Source: Verrucomicrobiota bacterium
GTDB lineage: Bacteria; Verrucomicrobiota; Verrucomicrobiia; JABWAM01
Reading direction: 5' to 3'
DNA: 64,000 nucleotides
NCBI GenBank assembly: GCA_023269615.1
Contig: JAHFSY010000016.1
Coordinates: 1-64,000 of the forward strand
The position numbers and the translations under genes are program-made. Positions 37,411-57,564 of this stretch are shown here, piece after piece. The notes beneath the pieces were generated by a model. It saw nothing but the letters and a program-made list of their open reading frames with translations. It ran no database searches and had not been told where the DNA came from. Within the stretch, counting starts at the first letter, position 1; each line of letters begins with the position of its first letter.

Positions 37411-39921
37411 TCACTCGCTAAGGTAGCGGTAGGATTTCACATTGAAGAGCTGGTTGGTGATCTGACCCGTCGTGTTGTTGTAGGAGGGAACGCGTTCGAC
37501 AGTGGCCTGGATGAAGGCGTCGCCCAAGACGGTGATTTTGCCCTGCAAGGCGGTTACGTTCTGGCCGCGGGCCCAGATGGTGAAGTTGTTGCCGTGCACG
37601 GTGGTGACACCGGAAAGGGCGCGGATAATGGCTTCGCGGCGTTTGTCAGTGTTCAGGCCGAATGCTCCGGGAGCGCCGTTGGTCAGGGCGTCCACCGTGG
37701 CAAGATCTCCGATCGTAAAATAAGGCGCGTTGTTGATCAGGTTGGTGGTCACGTAAGAACTAAAGGCGTTGTTATTGGTGAGGATGACGGTTCCGGTATA
37801 CAGGGGGATGCCGGCAAGGAGCCCGAACATGCTGCCGGCGCTGGAGACATTGCCGAGTTTATCGCGCTGGTTATTGATGTTCATCTTGCCCGAAACCAGA
37901 GACCCAGGAGTGTTGACCGTAAAGATGTCGAGCAACGCCCAATCGGGAACCTTCGCATTTGCGTTGTAGTTGGAATAGCCATCGCCATAGAGCTTCAGGG
38001 TTTTCCAATCATTGGTCGGGTAACTGACGATGCCCAGGAAACCAGGGGAAGGGAAGGGTTTGTTAAGAAATGGAAAACCCCCGTCTGTGGCGATACTGGT
38101 GGTGGTTTCGTTATCTCCGCCAGCGGTGCCGGGAGCATACGTGGTGTTCTGGGCGCCGAACGTGTTGTTGGTGGTGGCCGCGGAGACCCAGTTGGCGGTG
38201 GTGTTGTTGTTGCGGGGGTCGCCGGGACTGCCCACGTGGGCATGCATGGCAACATTGGTGGCCCACGTCCATGTAATCGGAACACCGGGCATGGAGAGAG
38301 CGGCGGGTGCGTAGGCGGCACGGGCCGGCAACTCAGCCAGATCCTGGCGATAAAAGACGGTGCCGGCGCCGTTGGTGGTTCCCCACAGGTTGGTGATGGT
38401 GCCGCTGGCGGGGCTGCTGATTGTAAGGTTGAAAGGGGAGCCGTTGGTGGGGATGGTGAACGTGTAAGCTTGTACTTTGTTGGTCACGAAATAACTGAAG
38501 GCTGCATTCGTTGCGGCAATAATCCGCACGCTGGGATTGGTGAATGGAAAATTAGTGGTTCCGGGTGTGGGGGATGGAGCCGCCCACGTGAATGTCATGG
38601 GCGCCGACGTATAAGCCGTGCTCACGTTGGTCCACAGGTAACATGGGGTGTCCCAAAGGTTGAAGTATTCCCAGGTGACTTTATTCGTGACGCCGATCTG
38701 GTAGTTGGCACCCACAATTGCGATCTGCACCTCGGTATTGAGCATAAGCTCATTCAAGTAGGGGCAGTGCTCGATGCCCAGAAATCCCGTGGTACTGAAA
38801 ACATTGTTTTCGCTGTCAGTCGGCCAATCGTCAGCGTCCTGCTGGTCGCGGATATTGGCGCAGATTTGGAAGCTGTCGCCTCTAAACTTGTTGGTGAAGA
38901 CGGGCAAGCCCATGCCATATACGGAACCATTTGTAAGCACCTGCGTTCCCAGTGCTCGTATCATGTTCGTAACATCCGTGGCCGGAAGCACGTTGGTGAA
39001 GGAGTTTATGTTGATGCGCTTGGTGCCGTTCGTCTGTCGTTCGTAATCACTGCTGCAGGCCGTGCCGTAAACACTGACGCCACCACCCTCATAGGTGGTG
39101 TTTGTGAAGTAGTACTGCCCGACATAGGTGACTCCCGGGGCTTCCATGACCGAAGCCAGCGTTTCGTACGGCGACGTGGCGCGGTTCGCCACGATGCTGT
39201 TGGCAGCTACAGGTCCCACGTATGGGAGACCGACCAGGTCAATGCCGCCCACAGTAAAGTCGTTGGTCCGCATGTGGGAGGGGCCTGCGCCCAAAGCGTT
39301 GCCAGCGTAGTTGATGTTGATCTTGGTGGAATCGTCGTCGATGTACCAGGACATTCGGACGAGCGACCGGTTGGTTTGCGTGGAATTGGAGGACATCGAG
39401 TTGGCCATGTAGGTCCACGGGACCCGCACATTGGGCACAAACCTTGCAGGAAACATGAAGCCCTGCTCGTTGAAATTGTTGGAAGCGGAGGAGTCTGTGA
39501 GCGCTGAGAATTTGTTCGTGAGGGTGTTCAAGAGGAGAAAATTGGTTGGGTTGCCCGTGGTTCCAGGTATCCATGATGCAGCTGACGGCCCGTAGAACAT
39601 CGTGACGGGATTGGTGCTGGCGTTTGCGTCGAAAAGTGTATTGGACACAAACGTGATGCAGTTCGGGGCGGCGAGATTGGTTCGGAGCTGGTAGATGGCC
39701 ATTTCCACAGCCGCCTGGGCGGCCATGCGCGCACGGGTCTCCTCAGTGAAGGCGTGGCCAGCCATGCGCTCCGTGCGCACGTTACTCACGAATGCAACGA
39801 GCAGCACCGTGAGCATGGCCAAGATGGCCAGGGTGACGATCAAGGCCACACCACGTTCATCCGGACGGCGGACACGGGTGGCTCGTTGATGGCCAACAGG
39901 AAGTACAGGATGGGGTTTCAT
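37411..39921 (-). CDS. Verru_Chthon cassette protein A-like (PilX/GspK-like minor pseudopilin)
   Basis: An 836-residue secreted protein rich in Asn, Thr and Pro. After a basic N-terminus it has the hydrophobic helix GVALIVTLAILAMLTVLLVA (about 24-43), then VSNVRTERMAGHAF and TRARMAAQAAVEMAIYQLR, the pattern of PilX/GspK-type minor pseudopilins and of the verrucomicrobial cassette protein A. It closes a six-gene operon and overlaps gene C by four bases (ATGA, 39918-39921). The large exported domain probably forms the tip or cargo of a pilus-like fibre. The family call is by pattern memory, not a search. Confidence 0.8.
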   Translation of the reverse strand: MKPHPVLPVGHQRATRVRRPDERGVALIVTLAILAMLTVLLVAFVSNVRTERMAGHAFTEETRARMAAQAAVEMAIYQLRTNLAAPNCITFVSNTLFDANASTNPVTMFYGPSAASWIPGTTGNPTNFLLLNTLTNKFSALTDSSASNNFNEQGFMFPARFVPNVRVPWTYMANSMSSNSTQTNRSLVRMSWYIDDDSTKININYAGNALGAGPSHMRTNDFTVGGIDLVGLPYVGPVAANSIVANRATSPYETLASVMEAPGVTYVGQYYFTNTTYEGGGVSVYGTACSSDYERQTNGTKRININSFTNVLPATDVTNMIRALGTQVLTNGSVYGMGLPVFTNKFRGDSFQICANIRDQQDADDWPTDSENNVFSTTGFLGIEHCPYLNELMLNTEVQIAIVGANYQIGVTNKVTWEYFNLWDTPCYLWTNVSTAYTSAPMTFTWAAPSPTPGTTNFPFTNPSVRIIAATNAAFSYFVTNKVQAYTFTIPTNGSPFNLTISSPASGTITNLWGTTNGAGTVFYRQDLAELPARAAYAPAALSMPGVPITWTWATNVAMHAHVGSPGDPRNNNTTANWVSAATTNNTFGAQNTTYAPGTAGGDNETTTSIATDGGFPFLNKPFPSPGFLGIVSYPTNDWKTLKLYGDGYSNYNANAKVPDWALLDIFTVNTPGSLVSGKMNINNQRDKLGNVSSAGSMFGLLAGIPLYTGTVILTNNNAFSSYVTTNLINNAPYFTIGDLATVDALTNGAPGAFGLNTDKRREAIIRALSGVTTVHGNNFTIWARGQNVTALQGKITVLGDAFIQATVERVPSYNNTTGQITNQLFNVKSYRYLSE

Positions 39922-40706
39922 GGTGCGTTGATCAAGTGGATGACGGTTGAATTTGTGACCGCGTAGCGGTTTACCCAGTCGGAGCGGGCAGCTCCGGCTG
40001 TGGGCGTATTGGGACCGTTTCGATTGTCGAGAATCACCAGGGTGACCTCGATGACGCTGGGGAGAAGGTTGGTTTGGCCGACGCCCTTGGCCGAATCCCA
40101 GAGGTTACCAGCTGACGGGTTGCCAGCCGAATCATAGTAAGTCAAAGTAAAGCCGGCGATGTTGTCGGCAACGACGTTCGTGGTCGTGAAGGCCGTGGGC
40201 AAAGTGCCAAATGGGGTGGAGGAGGTGATGGTGGAATCACGGGGATTCCAAGCCAGAGAACTTATGTCAGCAATCACCGGGTCGGTGCAATATCGGACGA
40301 GGTTGGTGACGCCGTAGGCGACTGTTGGCTGCTTGTAATTATAACCCACGCGAGACATGTCGGATCCAAACGCAATGGATGGCGGCACTGGGACGACGAA
40401 ATAGACACCGGTGATTGTCCCCACAAAGCGGAGGGTTGGCGCCGTGGCAGGGTTGGTCCAGCCATTGGTGGAAATGATGGCCTGGGAGATTTCTCGGCTC
40501 ATGACTTCAAACACCATGCGCGTGGAACTGCTGCGGCTGATGGATGTCTGCCCATGGATCCACGTTTGGGTAGCCTTGTTGAAGATATTGAACAGGATGA
40601 TCATGATGATCGAGAGGATGGCGCTGGCGACGAGCACTTCCACGACCGTGAAGGCGGAGGATTTTCTTTTCTTTCTGAAACGGAGACTGAGGAAAAGAGC
40701 GCGCAT
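39918..40706 (-). CDS. Verru_Chthon cassette protein C-like pseudopilin
   Basis: Start ATG 40706 gives 262 residues. The prepilin motif is SAFTVVEVLVASAILSIIMI (about 16-35): processing would occur before F with the conserved Glu at +5 (here VE). ATQTWIHGQTSISRSSSTRM and VFEVMSREISQAI follow, as in PulJ/GspJ-type minor pseudopilins. It lies four bases after gene B and overlaps gene A. It would be inserted in the membrane, cleaved by a prepilin peptidase encoded elsewhere and assembled with its neighbours. Confidence 0.82.
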   Translation of the reverse strand: MRALFLSLRFRKKRKSSAFTVVEVLVASAILSIIMIILFNIFNKATQTWIHGQTSISRSSSTRMVFEVMSREISQAIISTNGWTNPATAPTLRFVGTITGVYFVVPVPPSIAFGSDMSRVGYNYKQPTVAYGVTNLVRYCTDPVIADISSLAWNPRDSTITSSTPFGTLPTAFTTTNVVADNIAGFTLTYYDSAGNPSAGNLWDSAKGVGQTNLLPSVIEVTLVILDNRNGPNTPTAGAARSDWVNRYAVTNSTVIHLINAP

Positions 40707-40710
40707 GGAT

Positions 40711-41262
40711 TCAGTGGCTGCTGATGGCCGTGGTGAAGAAGTAAGTGGTGCGATTGGATAGGCCAATGGAGGTGGGCCAGGAAACGCGGATATCCACCAT
40801 GCAGAGGCCAACCTGGTTTGTGGAGGCTTTGTTCCTATCGACATCCACCTCGTAGTAATACCCCGCCTTCGCCCAGCCGTTATGGCTTGGAGTGAGGTCA
40901 GCAACAGGTATTCCGCCTGCTTTCTTAAAGTACAGGATGTACGGCCACGCGGTTTTGTTGCTCAAAGCGGGGATGTTGAAACTTGTGTCGCTGAGGGCAG
41001 GTGTGGCCGCGTTGTAGCCCGTGCTGCGGCGGTCGTTGACCACCGCCTGCACGAGCTGGGCTGCCATGCTGTCATCATTGCCATCGCGAACCGCATCAAC
41101 GCCGACGACAAACAGCCCGAGAATGCTGACCATGGCGACGCCGACGATGGCCAGGGCAAGCGAAACCTCCACCAAGCTGAAGGCTTTGTGAGTGAGAAGG
41201 TGGTGGGGGGACGAACCGCCAAGGCACAAAGACTCCAAGGGATGATGATTTTTTGTTTTCAT
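40711..41262 (-). CDS. Verru_Chthon cassette protein B-like pseudopilin
   Basis: A 183-residue protein with a long leader (about 26 residues) before the motif KAFSLVEVSLALAIVGVAMV, then a body ending NRTTYFFTTAISS. The length and motif suit GspI-like minor pseudopilins. Its start overlaps the stop of gene D (ATGA, 41259-41262). Unusually, part of the leader (LESLCLGGSS) is encoded by a CACCAAGG-type dispersed repeat, so the leader may have been lengthened by repeat insertion. An internal start nearer the motif, for instance an alternative codon near 41190, cannot be excluded. Confidence 0.82.
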   Translation of the reverse strand: MKTKNHHPLESLCLGGSSPHHLLTHKAFSLVEVSLALAIVGVAMVSILGLFVVGVDAVRDGNDDSMAAQLVQAVVNDRRSTGYNAATPALSDTSFNIPALSNKTAWPYILYFKKAGGIPVADLTPSHNGWAKAGYYYEVDVDRNKASTNQVGLCMVDIRVSWPTSIGLSNRTTYFFTTAISSH

Positions 41263-41885
41263 TGCGAAGTAATCCTGCCGAGAAATGTCTCCATGCTTAC
41301 TTTGATTGTGTTGGCGGCATTGCTGTTGACGATGGCCACGCTGCCTCCCAGTACAAGCACCGTACCCTCTGTGACATTCATGGAGACTGCGGTGGTGGGG
41401 ACGCCGGTGGCTTTCAGCTCGATGCAGGGAATGGAGGTGGTGGGGTTGCCGCTATTGGTGGGGAATGGGACGGGAGATGAGTTGTTGAGTGCAGACAGCG
41501 AGGCGACGGAAAAATAAGCTCCCGGAGGAAGAGAGTTCCATCCGGAGACATAAACCCAACTTGCAGCTGCATTGCTGGTGCGGTTGGTTTGGACCAGGAC
41601 TGCATACGTGGTGTAGGGCTGGGCGGCGTAGTTGGTGTCTGGGGGCTCAGCGAAGACGATGCGCACATGAGTTCGATCCGTGAGGGCCCTGGCTCGTGCG
41701 AGGCTGAGGGTGCTGGCGAACTGGCTGGAGCCCGACTTGACTGCGTTGCCGCGCATCATTTTCATCGAGGGGCCTGCAATTGCGACCATCAGGGCAATGA
41801 TAGCCATGACCGTGAGAAGCTCCACGAGCGTGAAACTTTTTTTGAAACCGACTTGCAACCCTGCGTGATGGCGGATCAGGTTCAT
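41259..41885 (-). CDS. Verru_Chthon cassette protein D-like pseudopilin
   Basis: A 208-residue minor pseudopilin resembling GspH/FimT. The cleavage motif is KSFTLVELLTVMAIIALMVA (residues 15-34), followed by SSQFASTLSLARARALTDRT, the amphipathic segment typical of GspH. The C-terminal beta domain includes VTEGTVLVLGGSVAIV. Start and stop both overlap neighbours by four bases (ATGA at 41882-41885 and 41259-41262), so translation of this part of the operon is probably coupled throughout. Confidence 0.83.
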   Translation of the reverse strand: MNLIRHHAGLQVGFKKSFTLVELLTVMAIIALMVAIAGPSMKMMRGNAVKSGSSQFASTLSLARARALTDRTHVRIVFAEPPDTNYAAQPYTTYAVLVQTNRTSNAAASWVYVSGWNSLPPGAYFSVASLSALNNSSPVPFPTNSGNPTTSIPCIELKATGVPTTAVSMNVTEGTVLVLGGSVAIVNSNAANTIKVSMETFLGRITSQ

Positions 41886-42484
41886 TTTAGCTGCCAGCTA
41901 GTGACATTGTCTTTATTACTGTTTTCCGTTGGAGCGGGATTGTCAATCAAGTCCTGTCCCTTCGACCAGATGCCATATTCGGCGTACACGTTGGTGACAC
42001 CCCCAAACATGGGGATTTGTTGATCGCCAGCGTCATCCAGCCTGACCTGATACGCGGTACCCCAAGGATCCACAAGGTTGACGTAGCCGCCGATCGTCTT
42101 GATTCGAGAACTTTTCAAACTCTCGAGAAAGTTGATCTTCCGTACGTTCCCGCCTGCAGCGGCAGTGCTCATATTGATATTGGTTCCGACGAGTATCAGA
42201 TACAGGCTCTGCAGTTCTGCTGCGCTCAGCGGATTTGAAGCTGGCACGGCGCCCGTAGCATCGGACGGCCATGTGCCATATTCGCCATAATATCGTTTCA
42301 GGGCGAGAGAGATACTGTTGATCTCGTCAGCAGCCTGTGCCCTTTTTGCCGCACTGCGCGCGCTTCCAAGGGCTCCAAGGACCATGCCCGCGAGGACGGC
42401 AATGATCGCCATGACCAATAGCAGCTCAACGAGTGTAAAACTGGACAAGTGGCTGCGTTCTGTATTTGAGGGATAATGCTCCAT
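41882..42484 (-). CDS. GspG-like major pseudopilin 2
   Basis: Start ATG 42484 (200 residues). A short leader precedes SSFTLVELLLVMAIIAVLAG (about 13-32), then KRAQAADEINSISLALKRYYGEYGTWP, split here at ALKRYY, the classic helix of type II secretion GspG. Further on is VDPWGTAYQVRLDDAGDQ, followed by YGIWSKGQDLID, the calcium-site region. It is a close paralogue of the gene just upstream (42486-43082), separated by one base. The stop overlaps gene D. Confidence 0.9.
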   Translation of the reverse strand: MEHYPSNTERSHLSSFTLVELLLVMAIIAVLAGMVLGALGSARSAAKRAQAADEINSISLALKRYYGEYGTWPSDATGAVPASNPLSAAELQSLYLILVGTNINMSTAAAGGNVRKINFLESLKSSRIKTIGGYVNLVDPWGTAYQVRLDDAGDQQIPMFGGVTNVYAEYGIWSKGQDLIDNPAPTENSNKDNVTSWQLK

Positions 42485-42485
42485 T

Positions 42486-43082
42486 TTATTTCCAACTGGT
42501 GACATTGTCGGCGTTGACGCCCGACGTTTCCGTGGGGTTATCCTGCAAATTTTCTCCCTTGGACCAGATCGCGAATCCTCCGGGCTTGAGAGGGCCGGTT
42601 CCATAGATTGCAACCTGGTTGTCATTGTCATCATCCAGCCTGACCTGGTACGCGCCGCCCCAAGGGTCCACCACATTGGTGAAGCCGCCGATCACAGCAA
42701 ATTCAGTGCTCTTGAATTCCAGGAAGCGGATCTGGCGCGTGTTTCCACCTGCAGCTGAAGATGCGAGGACGGCATTCAAGTCCCTATCGTTCCCGCTGAA
42801 AATCCAATAGAGCTCGTTCAACTGGGTTGGTGTAAGGTTGGCGTTGGGCACCACGCCCGCAGCGTGCGGCCATGTGCCGTACTCGGTATAGTAGGCTGTC
42901 AGCGCGACTCCCATCTGGTTGATCTGGACGCGGGCCTTGGCTCTTTTAGCCGTCCTGCGCGCGCCTGCAAGCGCTGCAAGGATCAGGCCGGCAAGAATGC
43001 CGATGATGGCGATGACGACCAACAGCTCGATGAGCGTGAAGCCGCGCAAGCGGATCTTGGAAAGACTCGGGTTGAGTTTCAT
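42486..43082 (-). CDS. GspG-like major pseudopilin 1
   Basis: First gene of the operon (198 residues). The motif RGFTLIELLVVIAIIGILAG (residues 13-32) is the standard prepilin cleavage and methylation site. It is followed by INQMGVALTAYYTEYGTWPH, then VDPWGGAYQVRLDDDNDN and FAIWSKGENLQDNP, as in GspG. Being first and most canonical, it could be the main fibre subunit, with its paralogue second. No secretin, ATPase or prepilin peptidase gene lies in the window, so the assembly machine must be elsewhere. Confidence 0.92.
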   Translation of the reverse strand: MKLNPSLSKIRLRGFTLIELLVVIAIIGILAGLILAALAGARRTAKRAKARVQINQMGVALTAYYTEYGTWPHAAGVVPNANLTPTQLNELYWIFSGNDRDLNAVLASSAAGGNTRQIRFLEFKSTEFAVIGGFTNVVDPWGGAYQVRLDDDNDNQVAIYGTGPLKPGGFAIWSKGENLQDNPTETSGVNADNVTSWK

Positions 43083-43948: not shown

Positions 43949-44812
43949 ATGAAAATTCGTTGGGCGTTGTTTAGCGCGGTTTTTCTGGCGCTTTTGGCTG
44001 CCACGACCGATGCGCGGGCGCTTGTTCTCAATTGGGACACCATCGTCTGGCCGGCTGGATCGCTGACCAACTCCTTCGATCTTAACGCTGACGCGGTGAA
44101 CGATATCAAGATCACGATCAGCGGAGACACTGCGGGTGCCTTCGCGCTGGGACCCATCAGCACCAATCGAACTGGTCTGGGCGCTCCCAATAACATCATC
44201 AACGGGGGTACCATTGGGGATGAGTATTCGTTGCTTCTTTACATTTCAGCGGCTGGGTGGACGCTGGACACTCAAAGCATCACCGTCACGGTGGATTTCC
44301 TGAGCTACGGTGGCGCCACCGGCGTGAATTACAAGCTGTTTGACGTGGATGTAAGCGGGCCGGGTTTCCCAGCGTCAACGAACTCTCCCGGCACCGCTGC
44401 GTACGATGACCAGATTCGCGGCATTCGTGGAAGCAACAGTACGGGATACGTCGGGGCAACGGTCACGGGCAGCCTGTCCAACCAGGTCTTGGGCACAGCG
44501 GGGACCACGAACCAGACGGTCCGGGGCATTGGCTCGGTCGGTGGAAATACAAACCTCGGCAACGTGACGATTGATTTTGGAACCACCACGGTGATCAATC
44601 AATTTCAGTTTACTTGGGGAAATGATGCGTCCAGCACATCGTCGAACCCAGGGATCCAATTGATCGGCTTCCATGACATCAATTTTTTGCCGATCATTCC
44701 TGAGCATGGAACGGCCTCGATGTCTCTCCTGGTTTGTTTGCTGGCGGTGGTGGGCATCCGTTTTGTGCACGTGGGGCAGCGCTTGAAGCCGCTGAAGGTG
44801 ACAGGCCGCTAA
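43949..44812 (+). CDS. Exosortase substrate with variant PEP-CTERM signal (PEHGT)
   Basis: Start ATG 43949 gives 287 residues with a signal peptide (MKIRWALFSAVFLALLAATTDARA). The body is beta-rich and high in Thr, Gly, Asn and Ser. The last 37 residues are a sorting signal: IPEHGTASM, a hydrophobic helix LLVCLLAVVGIRFV, then the basic tail GQRLKPLKVTGR. The Pro-Glu-His replaces the standard Pro-Glu-Pro. It should be exported, recognised by an exosortase and attached to the cell surface. It lies 24 bases before the TPR-exosortase pair, which suggests that it is their dedicated substrate. Confidence 0.78.
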   Translation: MKIRWALFSAVFLALLAATTDARALVLNWDTIVWPAGSLTNSFDLNADAVNDIKITISGDTAGAFALGPISTNRTGLGAPNNIINGGTIGDEYSLLLYISAAGWTLDTQSITVTVDFLSYGGATGVNYKLFDVDVSGPGFPASTNSPGTAAYDDQIRGIRGSNSTGYVGATVTGSLSNQVLGTAGTTNQTVRGIGSVGGNTNLGNVTIDFGTTTVINQFQFTWGNDASSTSSNPGIQLIGFHDINFLPIIPEHGTASMSLLVCLLAVVGIRFVHVGQRLKPLKVTGR

Positions 44813-44836
44813 AGCACGCGGCTTTTCGTTGCCCCC

Positions 44837-46567
44837 ATGGCTTCCACTCCGCCGATCGCAGGAGTACGCGAACCGTTTATTGTCCGGATCCTATCCCTCC
44901 GGAACATCGTGATCGCCATCGGGCTGGGTTGTGTTCTCGCAGGTCTGGTCCGGGGGGCGGTTGGATTTTATCAAAGATGGAGGGAGGAGCATCTGGTGAG
45001 CCAGGCGGTGCTTTTCATGGAGAAGGGCGACTATCCGAGTGCGGTGTTGAGCGCCCGGCAGGCTCTCCTGTCCAACCCCGCCAACCTGGGTGCGAGTCAC
45101 GTGATGGCCGATGTGGCCGATCGGATGGGTGTGCCGGAAGCGGTGTTCTGGCGGGGGCGCACATCAGATCTCAATCCCGGGGATTCGCTTGCCGCCATGG
45201 ACTGGGCTTCGACTGCGCTGCGCCATGGCGATATCGCGTCCGCCGACCAGGGGCTGCAGCGTGTCCATGGCGTGGCTCGCAAGACGCCGGAGTATCACCA
45301 GCTTGCCGGGGCGATGGCCTTGACGATGAAGGAACATGCGCTTGCTGAATTGCATTTTTCCATGGCGTTGAAGCTGCAGCCGTCCAACCGTTCCTATCAG
45401 ATCAACCTGGCCACCGTGCAGGTGGGTTCACCCAATCCCGAGACTGCCGGAAAAGCCCGCCACGCGCTCGATCAGTTGCGTCTCGACCCCAAAGTGCGCA
45501 TGCTGGCATTGCGGGCGTTGCTGGGCGACTCCCTGAACCGCTCGGACCTGAAGAATTCGCTGAAGTACGCCCGCGAATTAAAGGCGGCGCCTGAAGGCGG
45601 ATTTCGCGACAAGATTTCCCTGCTCGAGGTGCTGCACCGCTGGAACGACCCCGAATTTGCATCGTGCCTGGAAGAGTTGAAAAGCCGGGCGTCCGGCCGC
45701 CCTGGCGATGTGTACGAACTGGTGTCATGGATGAACGGCCATGAGATGTCGGGCGAGGCACTGGCATGGATGCGAACCCTTTCCCCCGTCGTGCTGGCCC
45801 AGCAGACTGCGGCGTCGGTGATGGCTGAGGCGTATGTTTTGCAGAAAGACTGGAAGGGGCTCCGGTCACTTGTTGACACACCGTGGGGCGATCTCGACAG
45901 CGTGCGAATCGCCTACCAGTCCCGCGCGTCCCGGGAACTGGATAACGCCGTGGCGGCAAACCTGCAGTGGCGGCAGGCGGTTCGCGCGGCAAAAAATACT
46001 TCGCAGAGGGGCATGCTGTTGAAGCTGGCTGACTCCTGGGGATGGAGGATCGAGGCGGAGGATCTGCTGTGGGAACAGGCGAAGGCGGCGGCGAATCCAC
46101 GTTGGGAATTGCTCTCCCTGTACCGCCGTTATCGTGAGCAGAAGAACACCCCGGGGATGCGCGAGGTGTCATTGCGCATTGTGAAAGCTGATCCCGCCGA
46201 CCTCATCGCGTTGAACAACCTCGCCACGTTTTCCATGCTCCTGAACATCGAGCGTCCCAAGGCGTACGAGATGGCCCGGGCGCTGCACGAGAAGGACAAG
46301 TCCCTGCCCGTGCCCCTCACCACGCATGCGCTGGCGCTGTATTTTCAGGGCAGGAGTGAGGAGGCGGTGAAGCTCATGGAGGGGTTGAAGGAAGACCAGC
46401 TTCGGGAACCATCCGTGGCGGCCTACTATGGAGTTTTCCTCGCCGGTGCGGGGGACAATGAGAAGGCGTTGAAATTTCTGGATCTCGCGAAGACGGCCCC
46501 GCTTCTGCCCGAGGAAGCGAATCTCGTGGATGAGGCCCGGCGCAAATTGAGGTCACACGGACCATGA
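44837..46567 (+). CDS. Membrane-anchored TPR protein of exosortase module 1
   Basis: The 576-residue protein has one N-terminal membrane helix (about 22-42, LRNIVIAIGLGCVLAGLVRG), followed by TPR-like helical pairs all along: LVSQAVLFMEKGDYPSAVLS, QLAGAMALTMKEHALAELHF, and near the end YYGVFLAGAGDNEKALKFLD. It would project a repeat scaffold into the periplasm. Its stop overlaps the exosortase start (ATGA, 46564-46567). The protein at 50420 is a paralogue with the same build. Its role is presumably to hold substrates or glycan machinery near the sortase, an inference from linkage. Confidence 0.83.
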   Translation: MASTPPIAGVREPFIVRILSLRNIVIAIGLGCVLAGLVRGAVGFYQRWREEHLVSQAVLFMEKGDYPSAVLSARQALLSNPANLGASHVMADVADRMGVPEAVFWRGRTSDLNPGDSLAAMDWASTALRHGDIASADQGLQRVHGVARKTPEYHQLAGAMALTMKEHALAELHFSMALKLQPSNRSYQINLATVQVGSPNPETAGKARHALDQLRLDPKVRMLALRALLGDSLNRSDLKNSLKYARELKAAPEGGFRDKISLLEVLHRWNDPEFASCLEELKSRASGRPGDVYELVSWMNGHEMSGEALAWMRTLSPVVLAQQTAASVMAEAYVLQKDWKGLRSLVDTPWGDLDSVRIAYQSRASRELDNAVAANLQWRQAVRAAKNTSQRGMLLKLADSWGWRIEAEDLLWEQAKAAANPRWELLSLYRRYREQKNTPGMREVSLRIVKADPADLIALNNLATFSMLLNIERPKAYEMARALHEKDKSLPVPLTTHALALYFQGRSEEAVKLMEGLKEDQLREPSVAAYYGVFLAGAGDNEKALKFLDLAKTAPLLPEEANLVDEARRKLRSHGP

Positions 46568-48099
46568 GGATGGCGGCATGGGTCATCGCGTTGCTCGTGG
46601 TCTGGGGGCGTGCGCTCATGCACCTCGCATCCGAGTGGTCGCTCAATCCGCAATTTCAATTCGGGCCGGCGGTGCCGGTCCTCGCGCTTTTTCTCGCATG
46701 GTTCCGCGTCCGATCCGCCGCATCGCCGGCGCCAGCGGAAATGGAAGCTTCGTCGTGTCGGATGCGCGTGTGGATTACGCTGGCACTCATCATGTTTCTC
46801 TGGGCGGAATTGATTCTTTCCGTGGACACCCGGTGGAGAATCATCTCCGGCCTGCAGGTGGGCTCGGCCACGATCCTCACCGCGGTCTGGCTGAGGCAGG
46901 CAGGCGGGTTGGCGGTGCTGCGGGCGATGGCGTTTCCATTGCTGTTCGTCTGGGTTGCCGTTCCGTGGCCCACCGTCATCGAATTTCCAGTGACCCAGGG
47001 GTTGATGCTGATGGTGACGGGCATCACGGTGGAGTTTCTGAACGCGGTTGGCATCGCGGCCCTTCAGCATGGAAACGTCATCGAGATGAGTTGCGGCGTG
47101 GTGGGCGTGGAAACGGCGTGCAGCGGCGTGCAGTCATTTCAAGCAAGCCTGATGGTATCGTTGTTTCTTGGGGAACTGTGGCGTTTTGGGCTGCGCCGCC
47201 GCCTTGCCCTGGTCGCCGCGTCGGCGGTGATCGCATTCGCCGGAAATCTTGCGCGAACCATCGGGCTCGCGTGGATCGTCAGTCGCGATGGTGCGGCCGG
47301 CCTGGAACGTCATCACGACATGATCGGTTCCATGGCGTCCGGTATGACCTTCCTGATGATCCTGGGCCTGGCGTTCATGCTGGCCCGAAGGACTCCGGTG
47401 ATGATACGGGAGGCCGGGCGGCTGCCCGTTCTGCGTCCGATCCGCGGCCACGCGGGGTATGTGGTGGCGTTGATGGTGATTCTCGCTCCGTTGCTGGTTT
47501 CGGGATGGTTTTACATTCGCGGGAAGAACGCTCACGTCCAGAATGAGGCGTTATGGATGATGAGGAAGGCGGGGGCATCGGGTGGGTGGCGGGTCGAGGA
47601 GCTTCGCGTGCCCGAAGAGAGTTTGCGGATTCTCCAGTGCAGTGAATCCCGCTCCGTGACCTGCCGTTCTCCCGGGGGAGTGACATTTCAGATCCATCAC
47701 TTTTTCTGGAAACCCTTGGTCGAGGTGCCCAGCCTCGCCACGGCGCACACCCCGGACATCTGCATGCCCAACGCCGGTTGGACGCTTGTGCGTGGTCCGG
47801 TGCCGGTCACCCTGAATGTTGGGTCAAAAAAGATTTCCGGGGCATTTTTCCATTTCACCCAGGCGGGGGTGGAAGTCTGTGTCTTTCACGCAATCTGGCA
47901 TGGAGGCGAGCCCCAGGTTTTGTCAGACGCATTCCATTCGTTGGACCGCTTCCGTGACCGTGCGGAGATGATCTGGGAGGGCAAACGCAATCGCGGGCAT
48001 GAAGTCCTCACCTTGATTGTCCCGGCGATGGGCGACCGGGTGCTTGAGGCCGGCGAGTGCCGGGAGGCGCTGGAGTGCGTGTTTGGCGCGGGCAAGTGA
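46564..48099 (+). CDS. Exosortase-EpsI fusion protein 1
   Basis: A 511-residue multi-pass membrane protein. Residues 1-275 are the exosortase core, with about eight membrane helices and the catalytic triad: C186 (VETACSGVQSF), R231 (GNLARTIGL) and H251 (HHDMIG). Residues 300-511 are an EpsI-type (DUF3485) periplasmic domain with HTPDICMPNAGW. Exosortases cleave PEP-CTERM signals like that of the adjacent 43949 gene and transfer the protein to a surface anchor. The start overlaps the TPR gene, so the two are coupled. Length and motifs are intact. Confidence 0.93.
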   Translation: MRMAAWVIALLVVWGRALMHLASEWSLNPQFQFGPAVPVLALFLAWFRVRSAASPAPAEMEASSCRMRVWITLALIMFLWAELILSVDTRWRIISGLQVGSATILTAVWLRQAGGLAVLRAMAFPLLFVWVAVPWPTVIEFPVTQGLMLMVTGITVEFLNAVGIAALQHGNVIEMSCGVVGVETACSGVQSFQASLMVSLFLGELWRFGLRRRLALVAASAVIAFAGNLARTIGLAWIVSRDGAAGLERHHDMIGSMASGMTFLMILGLAFMLARRTPVMIREAGRLPVLRPIRGHAGYVVALMVILAPLLVSGWFYIRGKNAHVQNEALWMMRKAGASGGWRVEELRVPEESLRILQCSESRSVTCRSPGGVTFQIHHFFWKPLVEVPSLATAHTPDICMPNAGWTLVRGPVPVTLNVGSKKISGAFFHFTQAGVEVCVFHAIWHGGEPQVLSDAFHSLDRFRDRAEMIWEGKRNRGHEVLTLIVPAMGDRVLEAGECREALECVFGAGK

Positions 48100-48127
48100 T
48101 CTTCTTCGAATTCCGCCACCGCGACTT

Positions 48128-48469
48128 TTATTTGGAACCGGATTTTCCGGTTGTGCCCGAGGGTGGTGTTCCCCTGCGGATTTGATATTTATCCACGATG
48201 CGTCGGGCATCCGCGTCGGTGGCGCTGAGGATGATCAGGTCGTTGGCAAGTCCTTCGAGGGCGGTCTGGACGGTACGGGATTGCGCGACGTCGGATTGGG
48301 CCTTACTGGCCTGCTGGGCCAGGGACTGCCCCGCTTTTTTCAGAGCGGCTGCATTGTTCCAGTGGGCGTGCACTTCAAAGATGAGGAAAAGGTTGAAGGC
48401 TGTCACCAGCAAAAGCAGTGGCAGAAAAAACGATGCGGGCCCCGCCTGGGATGATGGGTCCTGGTTCAT
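48128..48469 (-). CDS. Small single-span membrane protein, paralogue of its neighbour
   Basis: The 113-residue protein has a hydrophobic helix at about 13-33 (FFLPLLLLVTAFNLFLIF). A periplasmic heptad-rich helix follows (KKAGQSLAQQASKAQSDVAQ), then the motif LANDLIILSATDADARRIVD and a Gly/Ser/Thr tail. The last motif aligns with VQDLAQISANKPEVQALLAR in the upstream gene, so the pair arose by duplication. Stop and start overlap (ATGA, 48466-48469). The two genes lie between and opposite to the two exosortases. No family name is recognised. Confidence 0.75.
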   Translation of the reverse strand: MNQDPSSQAGPASFFLPLLLLVTAFNLFLIFEVHAHWNNAAALKKAGQSLAQQASKAQSDVAQSRTVQTALEGLANDLIILSATDADARRIVDKYQIRRGTPPSGTTGKSGSK

Positions 48470-48759
48470 GGCGCGCTGGGGGAATTGTGTTTGACGGTCA
48501 CTCCGTAGCGGGCGAGAAGGGCTTGGACTTCGGGCTTGTTGGCGGAAATCTGGGCGAGGTCCTGCACGATGCTATTCGCGGTGCGCAGGCTGACCATCCC
48601 CCGGTTCACATCAGCCTGGACTTTGGCAAGCGCCTCCTGTTGCGCGACCACGCCGGATTCAAGATGCGCGCGGTAAAATCCAAGCACGACGAGAAGGAGC
48701 GCCAGGATGAGGCTGGTGGCAGATGAGCCAAGAAGAAGTTTGTATTGGGAATGCGTCAC
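48466..48759 (-). CDS. Small single-span membrane protein, paralogue of its neighbour
   Basis: First gene of the two-gene minus-strand unit (97 residues). The membrane helix is at about 10-28 (GSSATSLILALLLVVLGFY). A coiled-coil-like segment follows (SGVVAQQEALAKVQADVNRG), then SIVQDLAQISANKPEVQALL. The layout equals that of the 48128 gene. Its start faces exosortase 2 across 86 bases, which must hold divergent promoters. A regulator or structural partner of the exosortase modules is a guess from position only. Confidence 0.75.
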   Translation of the reverse strand: MTHSQYKLLLGSSATSLILALLLVVLGFYRAHLESGVVAQQEALAKVQADVNRGMVSLRTANSIVQDLAQISANKPEVQALLARYGVTVKHNSPSAP

Positions 48760-48845
48760 GGGGAATGGAGCATGTTCGTTTTGAAAGAGGTCGTCAATCT
48801 TGGATTCCGCGCCGGGTTGTAATTTTCTTTTGAAGATTGTAGGGT

Positions 48846-50423
48846 ATGCGGGTGTTCAAACGGATGTCGCAGTTCTTGCCGGCGGATCGCCGTCCGCCCC
48901 TCAGTTTCGCCCTGTTGTGGATCGGGGCGTGGGCGATGTTGCTCCTGCAACTGGGAGTGGAATGGTGGCGCAATCCCCAGTACGGTTACGGGCTGGTTGT
49001 CCCCTTGTTGTGCGTGTGGATTTTGTGGGAAAGACGCGATGAATGGGCGGGGGTGTTCGACGGAGCTGCTGTCACCAAGCCGCGCCTCTCCCGAACGGGA
49101 CCCTTTCTCTTCCTGTGCGCGATCTCGCCGCTGCCGCTTGAACTCTTGCGGGAGGTCAGTCCACAGCTGCGTTCCATTGGCATTTATGGGTCGGCGCTTT
49201 GTCTTTCGCTCACCTTCTGGACGCTGCGGCGGATGGGGGCGCAGCGGGTGCCGCGCGTGGCGCTCGGCGTGGCCTTGCTTTTTGCAACGGCTGTTCCGTG
49301 GCCTTTGGCAGTCGAGGTCTGGGTGACGCAATCATTGATGAAAGGGATCGCCTCCTTCACGGCGGATGTGGTGAGTCTTTGTGGGATTCTCGCGATGCAC
49401 CGTGGGAACCTGATCGAGTTGCGCAGCGGGATGCTGAGCGTGGATGAGGCGTGCAGCGGGGTGCGATCGTTGCAATCATGCATCATGGCTTCGGTCGCCA
49501 TTGGCCAGTTCCATCGGCTTGCTTCGTCGCGCCAGGCCGTGTTGCTGGCGGGAGGCGTCATGCTGGCGCTGGCTGGAAATTTGGTGCGGACGCTGGCATT
49601 GACGCTGGTCGCCGCGTCGCGCGGGATGGAGAGCGTGCATCCTTTCCATGATCCGGCGGGATGGATCATCCTGGTGGGTGTGACGCTGGTTCTTTTCTGG
49701 GTTGGCAAACGACTTGCCGTTCCCATGCAGAAAACGACTGCGCGATGGGAATGGCCGGACTTTGGCTGCCTGCCCCGCAGCTGGGGGGCGCTGGTGACGG
49801 CGCTGGTTTCCCTTGTTGCGGCACACCTGTGGTACTGGACCCATGACGCGCGCTGGCCGATGCAGACGGAACCTTTTCTCGTGATGCGCACCACGGCGGG
49901 CTTTCGGGTGGACGAGATTCCCGTTCCTTCCTCCATCGAGAAAGTTTTGCAGTCGGATCGATCGGCGTATTATCAGTGCGCCTCGCGGGAATGGGGCGAT
50001 GCGGCGGTGTACTCATTTTTCTGGCTGCCGACGAGGGAGAACCAGGTGGGGTTCTTCCACCGCCCGGATATCTGCATGTCGGGCGCGGGCTGGGAGATGA
50101 AAGGGGAGGTGCGCGAGGTTTCCGTGCAGATCAGCGGCGTCAAGACGACGTGGTACCTGTTCACCTTCGAGCGCGAACACCGTCGGCTGATCCAGGCGTG
50201 GGGCGTATGGCGCGATGGTGTGGAGCAGAAGCTTGATTTTTCGCGCGGATGGCGTTTCCTGAGCGGACAACACATGCAGATCTGGCAATACGTTTTGGAA
50301 GGGCGCCGTGTGTCCAACATCCAGGTTGTATCGGTGATCCTGGACGCCCAGGCGGGTGGCGAATCACGCATGGCGACGGTCATCAGTCATCTCTTAGAAG
50401 CAAGGCAGAGGAGGTCGCCATGA
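48846..50423 (+). CDS. Exosortase-EpsI fusion protein 2
   Basis: A 525-residue paralogue of exosortase 1. The membrane core carries C203 (DEACSGVRSL), R248 (GNLVRTLAL) and H268 (FHDPAGW). After the last helix (about 310-330) comes an EpsI-type domain with FFHRPDICMSGAGW. Sequence between the catalytic motifs differs clearly from exosortase 1, so the two may prefer different signals; the window offers one PEHGT and one standard PEP substrate. The stop overlaps the following TPR gene (ATGA, 50420-50423). A second Met at residue 7 is an alternative start. Confidence 0.93.
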   Translation: MRVFKRMSQFLPADRRPPLSFALLWIGAWAMLLLQLGVEWWRNPQYGYGLVVPLLCVWILWERRDEWAGVFDGAAVTKPRLSRTGPFLFLCAISPLPLELLREVSPQLRSIGIYGSALCLSLTFWTLRRMGAQRVPRVALGVALLFATAVPWPLAVEVWVTQSLMKGIASFTADVVSLCGILAMHRGNLIELRSGMLSVDEACSGVRSLQSCIMASVAIGQFHRLASSRQAVLLAGGVMLALAGNLVRTLALTLVAASRGMESVHPFHDPAGWIILVGVTLVLFWVGKRLAVPMQKTTARWEWPDFGCLPRSWGALVTALVSLVAAHLWYWTHDARWPMQTEPFLVMRTTAGFRVDEIPVPSSIEKVLQSDRSAYYQCASREWGDAAVYSFFWLPTRENQVGFFHRPDICMSGAGWEMKGEVREVSVQISGVKTTWYLFTFEREHRRLIQAWGVWRDGVEQKLDFSRGWRFLSGQHMQIWQYVLEGRRVSNIQVVSVILDAQAGGESRMATVISHLLEARQRRSP

Positions 50424-52117
50424 CTTACACGCGTCATCGTCATCTTCCACTGCGTTACTTCTGGCTTTGGGTGGCCCTGGGTGTGACCGCCTTCCTCTTA
50501 GCACGACCCGCGTATCGCATGGTGAAGAACTGGCGTTCGGGCGTATTCGTTCGTCGCGCTGAGGCATCCATGGGCCGCGGTGACCTCGACGCGGCGAAGG
50601 AGGAGAGTTTGCTCAGTCTCCAGCTTCGTCCGGGTCGCGTGGATGCCTTGCGCGTGCTGGCCAGTGTGGTGGAGGCAAAAGGGAGTCCCGAAGTGCTCAC
50701 CCTTCGCATGTACATCGTGGACCAGGCGGGGGCGACGGATGGCGACAGGATCAACCTTGGCGAAACAGCGTTGAAAGCAAATGTGCCCGAGCTGACATCA
50801 CGCGAACTTGCGGTGTTGTTGAGCCGTGACAATCCCGCGAAGGAAACCTACATCCTTGCAGGCCTCCTTGCGGTGAGCCAACAGCAGCCCGCGCTGGCGC
50901 GGGAGTGGTTTCACAAGGCGCTGGAAATCGATGCCTCATGCACGACCGCAGAGATCAACCTCGCGCGCGTGGAGTTGTGGATGATCGGGGGAGAGGCCAG
51001 CGAGGACCGGGGACTGGCGCGCCTGAGGCGGCTTGCTTTGGGAAAGGACAACGCCGCTTTCGACAGCTTGAGGGAGCTGGTTCAGTGGGGGAGTGAGCAT
51101 GTGTCGCGGTTTCCATTTGATGAAAAATGGGGGGCCATGCTGGAGAAACATCCCCATGCAGGCTTGCAGGAGAAGTGCCTTGTCGCGGAGTGGAAGTGTC
51201 GGACATTTCCCATGCGGGAACCCGAGATTGCCGAGGGGCTGGTTGCCGCAGCGCGGCGGGCTCCCCCTGAACAACAAAGAGAGGCAGGCGCCTGGCTCAA
51301 CCACCACCGATTGTATGAGAGAACCCTGACGTCATTTCCACCCGGCCCGGATGTTCCGGACAGCATGGTTCTTGTGCAACTGGATGCCCTGGCGGCACTC
51401 GGAAAATGGGACCAGATCCGGGACTTTCTCAATGGAGATGTTCTGAAGAGTGATCCCGTGTTGAGATCACTCTACCGCGCCCGCGTGGCACGGGAAACGG
51501 GCAGCCGCCAGCTCTTCGAATGGGGCTGGCGCCGGGCACTCCGCGAGGCGGATGGCAATCCGTCTGCGCTTCAATACCTCGCGACGTATGCCGAGAGGCT
51601 TGGGGAAGCGGCTCTTGCCGTGGACGCGTACGAGGCGCTCAGCCTGCAACCAGGATTTCAGCAGCCGTCTCTGCTGAAACTGGTGCCGCTCTACGAAAAA
51701 CTTGGCGAGACGAGAGACCTGTTGAACGTGATGAAGCGGCTGCTGGAACTGCACCCGGATGACACCGCGGTGATCAACGACATGGCCTGGCTTGGATTGT
51801 TGGTCGGGGATGCGGGCTCGTCCGCGAGTGAGCGCGCCGAATACGTCTATTCCATGGATCCAAAGTTGCCCGCATTCGCCGCCACCTGCGCCCTGGCCCG
51901 TCTGAGGCTGGGAAAGGCTGCGCAGGCCGTGAAGGTGTTGGAAGCGATTCCCCGCTCACAGTTGACCGCCCCAGGATGGCAGGCGGTTTACGCCGCGGCA
52001 TTGGCCGCGAGCGGACGGCGGTCCGAAGGTGCGACCGTCGCCGCGCAGATCAGGCAGGAACTTCTCAAGCCGGAGGAGAAACGACTGCTTTCTGATTTTG
52101 GGTTGACGGTGAAATGA
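50420..52117 (+). CDS. Membrane-anchored TPR protein of exosortase module 2
   Basis: Start ATG 50420 follows a GGAGG site and overlaps the exosortase stop. It has 565 residues with one membrane helix (about 12-30, YFWLWVALGVTAFLLARPAY), then TPR-like repeats (VFVRRAEASMGRGDLDAAKE, ILAGLLAVSQQQPALAREWF, AVYAAALAASGRRSEGATVA). It is a paralogue of the 44837 protein, but here the exosortase comes first and the TPR gene second, the reverse of module 1. Confidence 0.85.
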   Translation: MTYTRHRHLPLRYFWLWVALGVTAFLLARPAYRMVKNWRSGVFVRRAEASMGRGDLDAAKEESLLSLQLRPGRVDALRVLASVVEAKGSPEVLTLRMYIVDQAGATDGDRINLGETALKANVPELTSRELAVLLSRDNPAKETYILAGLLAVSQQQPALAREWFHKALEIDASCTTAEINLARVELWMIGGEASEDRGLARLRRLALGKDNAAFDSLRELVQWGSEHVSRFPFDEKWGAMLEKHPHAGLQEKCLVAEWKCRTFPMREPEIAEGLVAAARRAPPEQQREAGAWLNHHRLYERTLTSFPPGPDVPDSMVLVQLDALAALGKWDQIRDFLNGDVLKSDPVLRSLYRARVARETGSRQLFEWGWRRALREADGNPSALQYLATYAERLGEAALAVDAYEALSLQPGFQQPSLLKLVPLYEKLGETRDLLNVMKRLLELHPDDTAVINDMAWLGLLVGDAGSSASERAEYVYSMDPKLPAFAATCALARLRLGKAAQAVKVLEAIPRSQLTAPGWQAVYAAALAASGRRSEGATVAAQIRQELLKPEEKRLLSDFGLTVK

Positions 52118-52141
52118 TCTGGCTGCGCGACATTTAACTTT

Positions 52142-52254
52142 GTAGCCGAACTCGCCATAGTTTGGAGGGATCCAGGGCGGAAGTGAGCGGGGTTCAATTG
52201 GGGACGAATCCCCAGTCCACAGCATGGCGGCCAAATTCTGGCGAATTCGGCTAC
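52142..52254. repeat. REP pair, family GTAGCC
   Basis: GTAG at 52142-52145 and CTAC at 52251-52254 frame 113 bp. The arms match as inverted repeats at about 21 of 24 bases; the right arm has the stem GAATTC-GCCA-GAATTT. Bases 52251-52253 are at the same time the stop codon of the minus-strand PEP-CTERM gene. Confidence 0.7.
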
Positions 52255-53285
52255 GCGATCGGGCGAAGGCGTAGGCCGTGGCGTGCGCGCCAGCCGAGGA
52301 GCGACACAACGAAGAATCCTGCCATCACGGTGGCGGGCTCAGGGACTGGCACGACTTCACCGGTGCTCAGGACAAGTGCGCCGGGGGTATAGCCGGTGAA
52401 AGTAATGCCGGCGAGGGTTTGCGCTGACATGCTGCTGTTGAAGAAAATCTTGCCGCCCGTGCCGGAGCTGTTGACCGAACCGGTCCAGTTGTTGATCGTG
52501 AGCGTGGAGCCCGAGAAGGATGTGTTGGCAAACGTGAGGGAGCCCGAGGTGCCAAGGTTGATGGTCGAGCTGGAGGTGAGCGTCATGGTCCCGATGGTAT
52601 CGCTGACACCGTTGGCTTGCGTGAGGGTTCCGCCGGCCATCGCGATCGGGGCGGCGTCTTTAATGGCATTTGAAGCATTGATCAACAGGGTGCCCCCGGT
52701 GTTCAGCGTGATCGATGCCGTGCTTCCCATGGCGCTGGCGATGTTGAGGTTTACATTGCCGGAGTTGACGGTCGTGGTGCCCGTGTAGGTGTTCGCAGCG
52801 TTCAGGTTAAAGATGCCGGTGCCGGAAAACGCCAGAGCTTTTGGGTTGGCGCCATCAATGACCCCATTGAAGTCCACCGTACCGGTTCCGGTCCCTCCAA
52901 AAGTGTTGGCGTTTTGCTGGAGGAGAAACGAGGAACCGATCACCACGCTTCCCGTACCGTTCTGGTTGAATTGTGTTCCAGAACTGAAGAGCCTCAACTG
53001 GCCGCCGGTGATCGTGTACTGGTTGTCATCGTTGAACGTAATGGTGTTGATACTGATGGGAGAGGTGGTCTGTGTGACCGTCCGGTTCGCGGTGATGACG
53101 TTCCCAAAGATTGCGTCATCGGCAGTGCCGTTGTCGCCGGGCCATTTCGTACTCGTTCCAGTCCAGTTGGTGTCCACTTCCCAGTTCCCGTTCGCATCCA
53201 CGTTCCATGTGCCGGTGTGCGCCCTTATCAGGGATGGACACAGGAACAGGACCAGCAGCACCGCGATGGAACGACCACGAAACAT
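52251..53285 (-). CDS. PEP-CTERM protein with autotransporter-type beta-strand repeats
   Basis: Start ATG 53285 gives 344 residues: a signal peptide (MFRGRSIAVLLVLFLCPSLIRA), then a Gly/Thr/Asn-rich beta-helix-like passenger. It contains GIFNLNAANTYTGTTTVNSG, the autotransporter-associated beta-strand repeat. The end is a standard exosortase signal VPVPEPATVMAG, a helix FFVVSLLGW and basic residues RARHGLRLRP. It should be surface-attached by one of the two exosortases. It faces module 2 tail to tail, across a REP pair that supplies its TAG stop. Confidence 0.88.
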   Translation of the reverse strand: MFRGRSIAVLLVLFLCPSLIRAHTGTWNVDANGNWEVDTNWTGTSTKWPGDNGTADDAIFGNVITANRTVTQTTSPISINTITFNDDNQYTITGGQLRLFSSGTQFNQNGTGSVVIGSSFLLQQNANTFGGTGTGTVDFNGVIDGANPKALAFSGTGIFNLNAANTYTGTTTVNSGNVNLNIASAMGSTASITLNTGGTLLINASNAIKDAAPIAMAGGTLTQANGVSDTIGTMTLTSSSTINLGTSGSLTFANTSFSGSTLTINNWTGSVNSSGTGGKIFFNSSMSAQTLAGITFTGYTPGALVLSTGEVVPVPEPATVMAGFFVVSLLGWRARHGLRLRPIA

Positions 53286-56262: not shown

Positions 56263-57564
56263 ATGGTCATGAGCCCCCCCGGCCCCACACCGCGACTGTA
56301 TTTTGACAACCTGATACGGTACTCCCGGAATCCTCTGGGATTTCTCGAGGAAATGGTGCGCCAGTACGGTGACACCGTTTTCGTCGAGATGCCGGGTTAT
56401 TCGTTCTATATCATCAACGACCGCAAAAGCGTGGAGGAGGTCCTGCGAAACAAGGACGGGCTTTTCATCAAGGACAAGGCGAGTCACATGGTCTCCCGCG
56501 TGGTGGGAAACGGGTTGATCATCAGCGAGGGCGATTTTTGGAAGGGCCAGCGCAAGGCTGCCCAGCCCGCGTTCCACCCGGGCTGCATCGCGGGATGGGC
56601 CGGTCACTTCACGGAGTATTGCCGCGAACGCATGGGCACGTGGCACGACGGGCAGGTGATCGTGATCCAGGACGAGATGATGAAGACCACTCTGCGCATC
56701 ATCGCAAAAATCATCTTCAACGTGGATGTCACCAAACAAAGCGCCGAGGTCGGCGAAGCCATGGTGGATGTGACGGATTACTTTTCCAGCATCCTCAATT
56801 TCATTTTTCCCGAGTGGCTTCCGACGCCCGCCAACATCAAGTTGAAGCGGTCCGTGCGCGAGCTGAACCGGCTGATTGTGGAATTTGGAAAAGGCGACGC
56901 CTCGGCGGGCGAGGCTGCCCCCACCATGCAGGACATGCTTCGTTCCGCTGGACTGGGTGGCGATCAATTGCGTGACGAGCTGGTCACCTTCCTGCTCGCG
57001 GGACACGAAACCACGGCACTGGCCCTGAGCTTTTCCATTTACCTGCTCTCGAAGCATCCCGAGGCGCTGGAAAAACTCCGGGCTGAAATCAAACAGGTGG
57101 CGGGAGGTCGTCCCATCGCGGTGGAGGATTACAAGCAGCTGGCTTTCACAAAGCGTGTTTTTCAGGAAGCGTTGCGCCTCTATCCTCCGGCATGGAGTCT
57201 TGGGCGCGAGGCACTGCAGGATTGCGAGCTGTCCGGCTTCAGCATTCCCGCCCATGCGCAGCTCGCAATCACGTCATGGCTGCTCCATCGGGACGAGCGT
57301 TATTTCAAGGATCCGCTGGTATTCAAGCCCGAGCGATGGGAATCCATTGCAGAGCACGATCTGTCATTTGCATACATCCCGTTCGGCGCCGGCCCAAGGG
57401 CATGCATCGGGCGGGAGTTTGCGATGATGGAAGGCGTCCTCATCCTCGGAACCCTCTTTCAAACATGGAATTTTGAGCTTGTGAGCAACACGCCTTTGGA
57501 ATTCCAACCTTCCATCACGCTGCGCCCAAAAAAACCTCTCGAAGCCAGGGTGAAGAAATTCTAA
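56263..57564 (+). CDS. Cytochrome P450
   Basis: A 433-residue haem monooxygenase with all key motifs: I-helix LLAGHETTALAL, K-helix EALRLYPP (ExxR), PERW, and the haem loop FGAGPRACIGREFA with Cys381 as thiolate ligand. It is a soluble-type bacterial P450 with no membrane anchor. No ferredoxin or reductase partner is adjacent, and neighbours do not point to a substrate. ATG 56269 is an alternative start. Fatty-acid or terpenoid oxidation are typical roles but unproven here. Confidence 0.95.
   Translation: MVMSPPGPTPRLYFDNLIRYSRNPLGFLEEMVRQYGDTVFVEMPGYSFYIINDRKSVEEVLRNKDGLFIKDKASHMVSRVVGNGLIISEGDFWKGQRKAAQPAFHPGCIAGWAGHFTEYCRERMGTWHDGQVIVIQDEMMKTTLRIIAKIIFNVDVTKQSAEVGEAMVDVTDYFSSILNFIFPEWLPTPANIKLKRSVRELNRLIVEFGKGDASAGEAAPTMQDMLRSAGLGGDQLRDELVTFLLAGHETTALALSFSIYLLSKHPEALEKLRAEIKQVAGGRPIAVEDYKQLAFTKRVFQEALRLYPPAWSLGREALQDCELSGFSIPAHAQLAITSWLLHRDERYFKDPLVFKPERWESIAEHDLSFAYIPFGAGPRACIGREFAMMEGVLILGTLFQTWNFELVSNTPLEFQPSITLRPKKPLEARVKKF

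Follow-up and report, generated by a model that had tools for sequence, protein, structure and literature searches.

Exosortase biology is hard to resolve, since many genomes pair one or more of these enzymes with dozens of client proteins. Among the closest described systems, the fusions of exosortases with EpsI and the tetratricopeptide repeat (TPR) lipoprotein PrsT, which is sometimes found near EpsH, are described by Haft 2006 (PMC1569441), where V. spinosum is listed without PrsT; dedicated systems, in which each enzyme has one client encoded next door, are defined in PMC3237569, which also reports homologous protein bodies bearing different tags. Here we describe a locus of 9.4 kb in a Verrucomicrobiota bacterium, contained in the first 64,000 nucleotides of contig JAHFSY010000016.1 (the window; contig C32 in our numbering) of a metagenome-assembled genome (MAG) of 4.48 Mb that is 94.8% complete. 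The locus carries two exosortases (Xrt1 and Xrt2), two TPR proteins and two putative clients, and we read it, with somewhat more confidence than doubt, as two adjacent dedicated exosortase-TPR-client cassettes, Xrt1 acting on a protein with a PEHGT tag (the PEH protein) and Xrt2 on one with a PEP tag (the PEP protein). Sequence comparisons place the two modules in anciently separate, independently inherited lineages that now lie side by side. Two enzymes and two recognisable clients within so short a stretch, together with a related genome (G004) that has one of each, narrow the question of specificity to a few genes.

The first module lies on the forward strand and runs from the PEH protein (43949-44812), which comprises a signal peptide, a body of an undescribed family, a C-terminal signal of the VPE-x10-C type (IIPEHGTASMSLLVC...) and a basic tail, through TPR1 (44837-46567; an N-terminal transmembrane (TM) helix at residues 24-42, followed by TPR repeats) to its partner Xrt1 (46564-48099). 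In the second module the enzyme precedes the TPR protein: Xrt2 (48846-50423) is followed by TPR2 (50420-52117; an N-terminal hydrophobic helix at residues 9-27 and TPR repeats), both on the forward strand, and then by the PEP protein on the reverse strand (53285-52251), with a signal peptide, a passenger-type beta repeat and the C-terminal signal VPVPEPATVMAGFFVVSLLGWRARHGLRLRPIA. Enzyme and TPR genes overlap by ATGA in both modules, at 46564-46567 (TPR1/Xrt1) and at 50420-50423 (Xrt2/TPR2). An initial annotation of this DNA had correctly recognised these six genes, both overlaps, the intact catalytic triads, the opposite gene orders and the PEHGT and PEP flanks; the mirror symmetry it saw holds for gene order, but not for strand, as both modules are on the forward strand and the PEP gene alone is on the reverse.

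Both enzymes appear to be exosortase-EpsI fusions. They match PF09721 with 127 bits (Xrt1, E-value 1e-36) and 133 bits (Xrt2, 2e-38) against a cut-off of 25.7, and fall within the exosortase/archaeosortase family by TIGR04178 (47.7 and 57.4 bits; cut-off 23). The catalytic Cys/Arg/His residues are present in both, as C186/R231/H251 in Xrt1, where they are invariant across six proteins of its clade, and as C203/R248/H268 in Xrt2. The EpsI signature, H-x-P-D-I-C-x4-G-W, starts at residue 395 in Xrt1 (H395-C400-GW406) and at residue 405 in Xrt2 (H405); the EpsI domain models match weakly, Xrt1 reaching 20.2 bits with DUF3485 (5e-4; curated cut-off 26.1) and Xrt2 12.6 bits with TIGR02914 (0.07; cut-off 42.8). 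The best-scoring exosortase model for both is that of exosortase D (TIGR04152), at 93.3 bits for Xrt1 and 105.7 bits for Xrt2, which against a cut-off of 400 places neither within XrtD. Among solved structures, no relative of the Xrt1 clade was found at E<=1. Searches of the whole genome with PF09721 and TIGR02602 return exactly two exosortases, both at this locus.

The locus looks self-contained, because these are the only two exosortases and no other convincing sorting-signal protein was found genome-wide. TIGR02595 detects no PEP-CTERM protein over its cut-off in the whole genome. With PF07589, 22 of 25 genomes searched have matches over the cut-off, many of them tens; the best match in this genome has an E-value of 0.02, the level of the PEP protein in the window, and none of its matches is among those listed. 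The PEP protein itself, which has a tripartite tail and matches autotrns_rpt and PATR in its beta repeat, scores 15 bits with PF07589 over its full length and 19.3 bits over the tail alone (cut-off 20.7). Exact patterns give 15 matches genome-wide for PEP[AST]T (21 in a reversed control) and three for PEHGT (none in the control), and among these only the two proteins of the window combine the motif with a helix and a basic tail. No further candidate client emerged when 386 kb (8.6% of the genome, counting the window) were scanned by composition; this is weak evidence by itself, as the scan is strict enough to miss the PEP protein of the window. Within the limits of short-tag searches, two exosortases are matched by two detectable clients, all inside the 9.4 kb, and each enzyme has one detectable client encoded next door, as defines a dedicated system.

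The PEH protein gives no match to the PEP-CTERM models (TIGR02595/PF07589); PEH takes the place of PEP, and helix and basic tail are present. In its family, PE-non-P tails (PEHGT, PEVGT, PEAGT, PEINP, PEMNP, PEFHP) mostly have a cysteine fixed 11 residues past the glutamate of VPE, inside the hydrophobic segment (for example at window positions 44699-44740). Within the client family this cysteine (E+11) is found in 17 of 22 PE-non-P tails versus one of nine PEP tails (Fisher p = 0.001, the rows not being independent), and among 27 canonical PEP tails in none; tails at L315, L311 and L290, which were outside the training of the tag profile, have it as well. In some other genomes the same client body ends in an ordinary PEPST tag. 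The VPE-x10-C variant is covered by no NCBIfam or Pfam model, though two tails score with the PEP-CTERM model without attaining its cut-off; because the tag escapes current models, PEP-CTERM searches undercount clients in Verrucomicrobiota. Our profile of the variant gives one significant match in this genome (1.6e-11; next 0.35) and one in G004 (next 0.73), with E-values that are inflated because both matches are training rows, although the gap to the next is still large. The best evidence that Xrt1 would serve clients of this kind comes from G004, whose only exosortase belongs to the Xrt1 clade and which has one VPE-x10-C protein.

The PEH protein has no Pfam or NCBIfam match, and its family, which gives only chance matches to solved structures, is undescribed. 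It is 34-37% identical to proteins adjoining exosortase/TPR genes in G195, G098, G281 and G256, and by profile search the family is present in 19 of 384 genomes of the class, its gene often having a gene like TPR1 and an exosortase gene right next to it. The client directly adjoins a TPR-family gene in G000, G195, G098, G281, G256, G334, G373, G001, G002, G091 and G027, usually upstream of it and on the same strand (reversed in G027). Where an exosortase of the Xrt1 clade has an adjacent TPR gene, the client family occurs in five of five genomes searched (G000, G001, G002, G004 and G195, four of which belong to one taxonomic family), and a MAG from an independent collection, REEB50 (L315), has client, TPR protein and exosortase in that order. 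A scan of named genomes with Xrt1 alone gave no match; an alignment-based scan did give matches. On three contigs (G001 C52, G002 C27 and G091 C26; L282, L283 and L284) a client-TPR pair stands with no exosortase in the flanks examined, and this suggests a tie between the TPR protein and the client. In the isolate Chthoniobacter flavus Ellin428 (L319), a candidate client with a PETSA tail, a TPR protein and a divergent exosortase lie together.

The window exemplifies a broader tendency towards such cassettes, since other genomes carry several of them: G084 has three consecutive exosortase/TPR/client cassettes with PEPRT-tailed clients (L122, G084:C1:1170000-1189900), and G044 has three modules, each adjoining a client candidate with its own tag (PEMSA at L072, PEPST at L057, PEAAS at L059).

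The linkage of TPR proteins to exosortases was surveyed in 80 neighbourhoods across the class and in the window, which together contain 86 exosortases. A neighbour from the TPR1/TPR2 family, within 1.5 kb, is present for 55 of these, far above chance; the corresponding 64% is not a class-wide rate, because the sample was picked by similarity to Xrt2. The arrangement is exosortase-TPR in 29 cases, divergent in 15 and TPR-exosortase in 11. Exosortase and TPR trees are congruent (Mantel r = 0.54, with none of 2000 permutations as high), and the nearest partner is common to both in 34 of the 55 pairs. The breadth of this linkage suggests that exosortases have a partner so far overlooked. The initial annotation had asked whether TPR proteins are conserved next to exosortases elsewhere, which they are in this survey, and had named their absence there, or one and the same signal type always found with both enzymes, as outcomes contrary to its proposal; neither occurred, as the TPR linkage is conserved and the signal types of the clients differ.

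If the locus does hold two dedicated cassettes, each client would pass through Sec and stay anchored in the inner membrane by its C-terminal helix; the TPR partner, presumably itself anchored in the membrane, would bind the client and deliver it to the matching exosortase, which would cut at the PE motif using its Cys/Arg/His triad, and the cut client would be released or transferred to a surface carrier. Export, retention, cleavage and transfer are modelled on established exosortase and sortase biology. Xrt1 would handle the PEH protein, with its VPE-x10-Cys tag, and Xrt2 the PEP protein. Several points weigh against this. The evidence is from sequence, searches with short tags have low sensitivity, about 5% of the genome is missing from the MAG, and clients with tags of another type may have escaped detection. 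Exosortases outside the Xrt1 clade (L072, L076 and the L085 group) also have VPE-x10-C clients beside them, so that the tag is not tied to one enzyme clade; G195 has several such clients and one detected Xrt1-type enzyme, and the pairing is thus not strictly one-to-one everywhere; and in G001, G002 and G004 the client does not adjoin an exosortase. Xrt2 probably serves the PEP protein, a pairing that follows from adjacency and elimination only, because the contig of its nearest relative (in G005) ends inside TPR2.

A further reading is that the exosortases are redundant or overlapping, the flanking proteins being two of several clients, some with unrecognised tags. We regard this as unlikely, even though divergent signals are poorly captured by tag searches, PEP-CTERM matches number in the tens in many relatives, and more than one exosortase clade has VPE-x10-C tags in its flanks: several genome-wide searches and the composition-based sample of 8.6% gave no further clients, and G004, which has only the Xrt1 type, retains one VPE-x10-C client.

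A glycan-related role for the TPR proteins, as scaffolds for exopolysaccharide (EPS) or envelope assembly resembling PrsT of the proteobacterial XrtA system, with the exosortases coupling surface proteins to glycan, seems to us equally doubtful. PrsT is the best-scoring model for both, at 47 and 51 bits, but lies far from including either, with a cut-off of 312.2 (TIGR02917), and by inspection neither TPR1 nor TPR2 has a lipobox-like cysteine after the N-terminal hydrophobic segment. PrsT was placed near EPS genes by Haft 2006 (PMC1569441), and the window has an O-antigen ligase-like gene, at 62431-63756; no glycan assembly gene, however, directly abuts either module (in the window; relatives were not surveyed for this), and the TPR protein stays beside the client on the three contigs where the flanks show no exosortase. 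As clients and TPR proteins remain paired even where no exosortase adjoins them, the TPR proteins, for which the initial annotation had offered a role as substrate or glycan scaffolds, are better read as client adaptors. AlphaFold2 without alignment gave unusable models (pLDDT 51 for TPR1, 37 for the PEH protein), and a search of the literature, incomplete in its coverage, found nothing on this TPR family or on the VPE-x10-C tag.

A local duplication at the site, followed by divergence in signal preference, was the origin proposed in the initial annotation and would fit the same parts lying adjacent in mirrored order, but it is highly improbable, as forcing the exosortases together as sisters costs 177 log units (approximately unbiased (AU) test, p = 0.0002) and forcing the TPR proteins together costs 92 (p = 0.00035) under the model used, Xrt2 is 31% identical to Xrt1 and 49% to its counterpart in G005, a member of another family, and the gene order of each module is that of its own clade. 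Xrt1 groups with the exosortases of G004, G001, G002 and G195, all TPR-first, and Xrt2 with that of G005, exosortase-first. Genomes that have one module and lack the other, as the initial annotation had proposed to look for, do exist: G004 has the Xrt1 type only, and G005 has the Xrt2 type and another exosortase, but none of the Xrt1 type. A divergence in signal preference is still likely, as client tags differ between the lineages (PE-non-P versus PEP), though it would lie between ancient lineages and not between duplicates. A single clade uniting the Xrt1 group with two exosortases of the L085 group is disfavoured, though only weakly (p = 0.027 in a post hoc test), and for this reason the data do no more than hint at a swap of exosortases beneath a conserved pair of client and TPR protein. 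More tentatively than the pairing of two dedicated cassettes at this locus, we propose that VPE-x10-Cys may form a tag class of its own among exosortase signals, with a client family and a TPR adaptor particular to it; client specificity would then reside in the TPR protein, and not in the exosortase alone, and different exosortase lineages could serve client-TPR pairs.

The two modules are separated by two small reverse-strand genes that the initial annotation passed over, s1 (48128-48469) and s2 (48466-48759), which overlap by ATGA and encode small TM/coiled-coil proteins. They look like bystanders because the s1 family is present in 63 of 384 genomes of the class and no match adjoins an exosortase located elsewhere; we rejected them as parts of the cassettes, their family occurring independently of exosortases. 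The pair is also found together in G091 (L302:11265-11882), near a client gene, which looks coincidental. Divergent from the PEH gene, a series of pseudopilin-like genes whose products have N-methylation motifs occupies positions 37411-43082 of the reverse strand and ends in a protein of 836 residues, the N-terminus of which weakly resembles Verru_Chthon cassette A / GspK; this operon was likewise rejected as part of the system, as prepilin motifs occur at 6 of 101 surveyed loci. A cytochrome P450 gene lies near the locus, at 56263-57564.

Among the known systems, XrtD (TIGR04152), which is specific for VPLPA-CTERM, provides the top model for both enzymes, with matches that span most of its 486 positions and extend past the exosortase core; the scores of 93 and 106 bits are, however, far from the cut-off of 400, the tags here are not VPLPA, and the enzymes here have a TPR partner in tandem. 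The XrtA/EpsH-PEP-CTERM system with PrsT (Haft 2006, PMC1569441) resembles the locus in having an exosortase, tags of the PEP type and a TPR protein encoded in some cases close to the exosortase, but PrsT is a lipoprotein with a model of 899 positions, whereas the TPR proteins here have about 570 residues, an N-terminal hydrophobic helix and a gene that overlaps that of the exosortase. The dedicated systems of rhombosortase/GlyGly-CTERM and of sortases (PMC3237569) likewise have one enzyme with a neighbouring client, and homologous bodies whose tags vary between genomes, although their enzyme families are unrelated to exosortases. MYXO-CTERM and myxosortase (PMC11980579) share a tripartite tail with a near-invariant cysteine; there, the cysteine is part of the signature motif that precedes the TM helix and a CPBP-type protease is the enzyme, whereas in the VPE-x10-C tag it sits inside the hydrophobic segment, 11 residues past the glutamate, and the enzyme encoded nearby is an exosortase.

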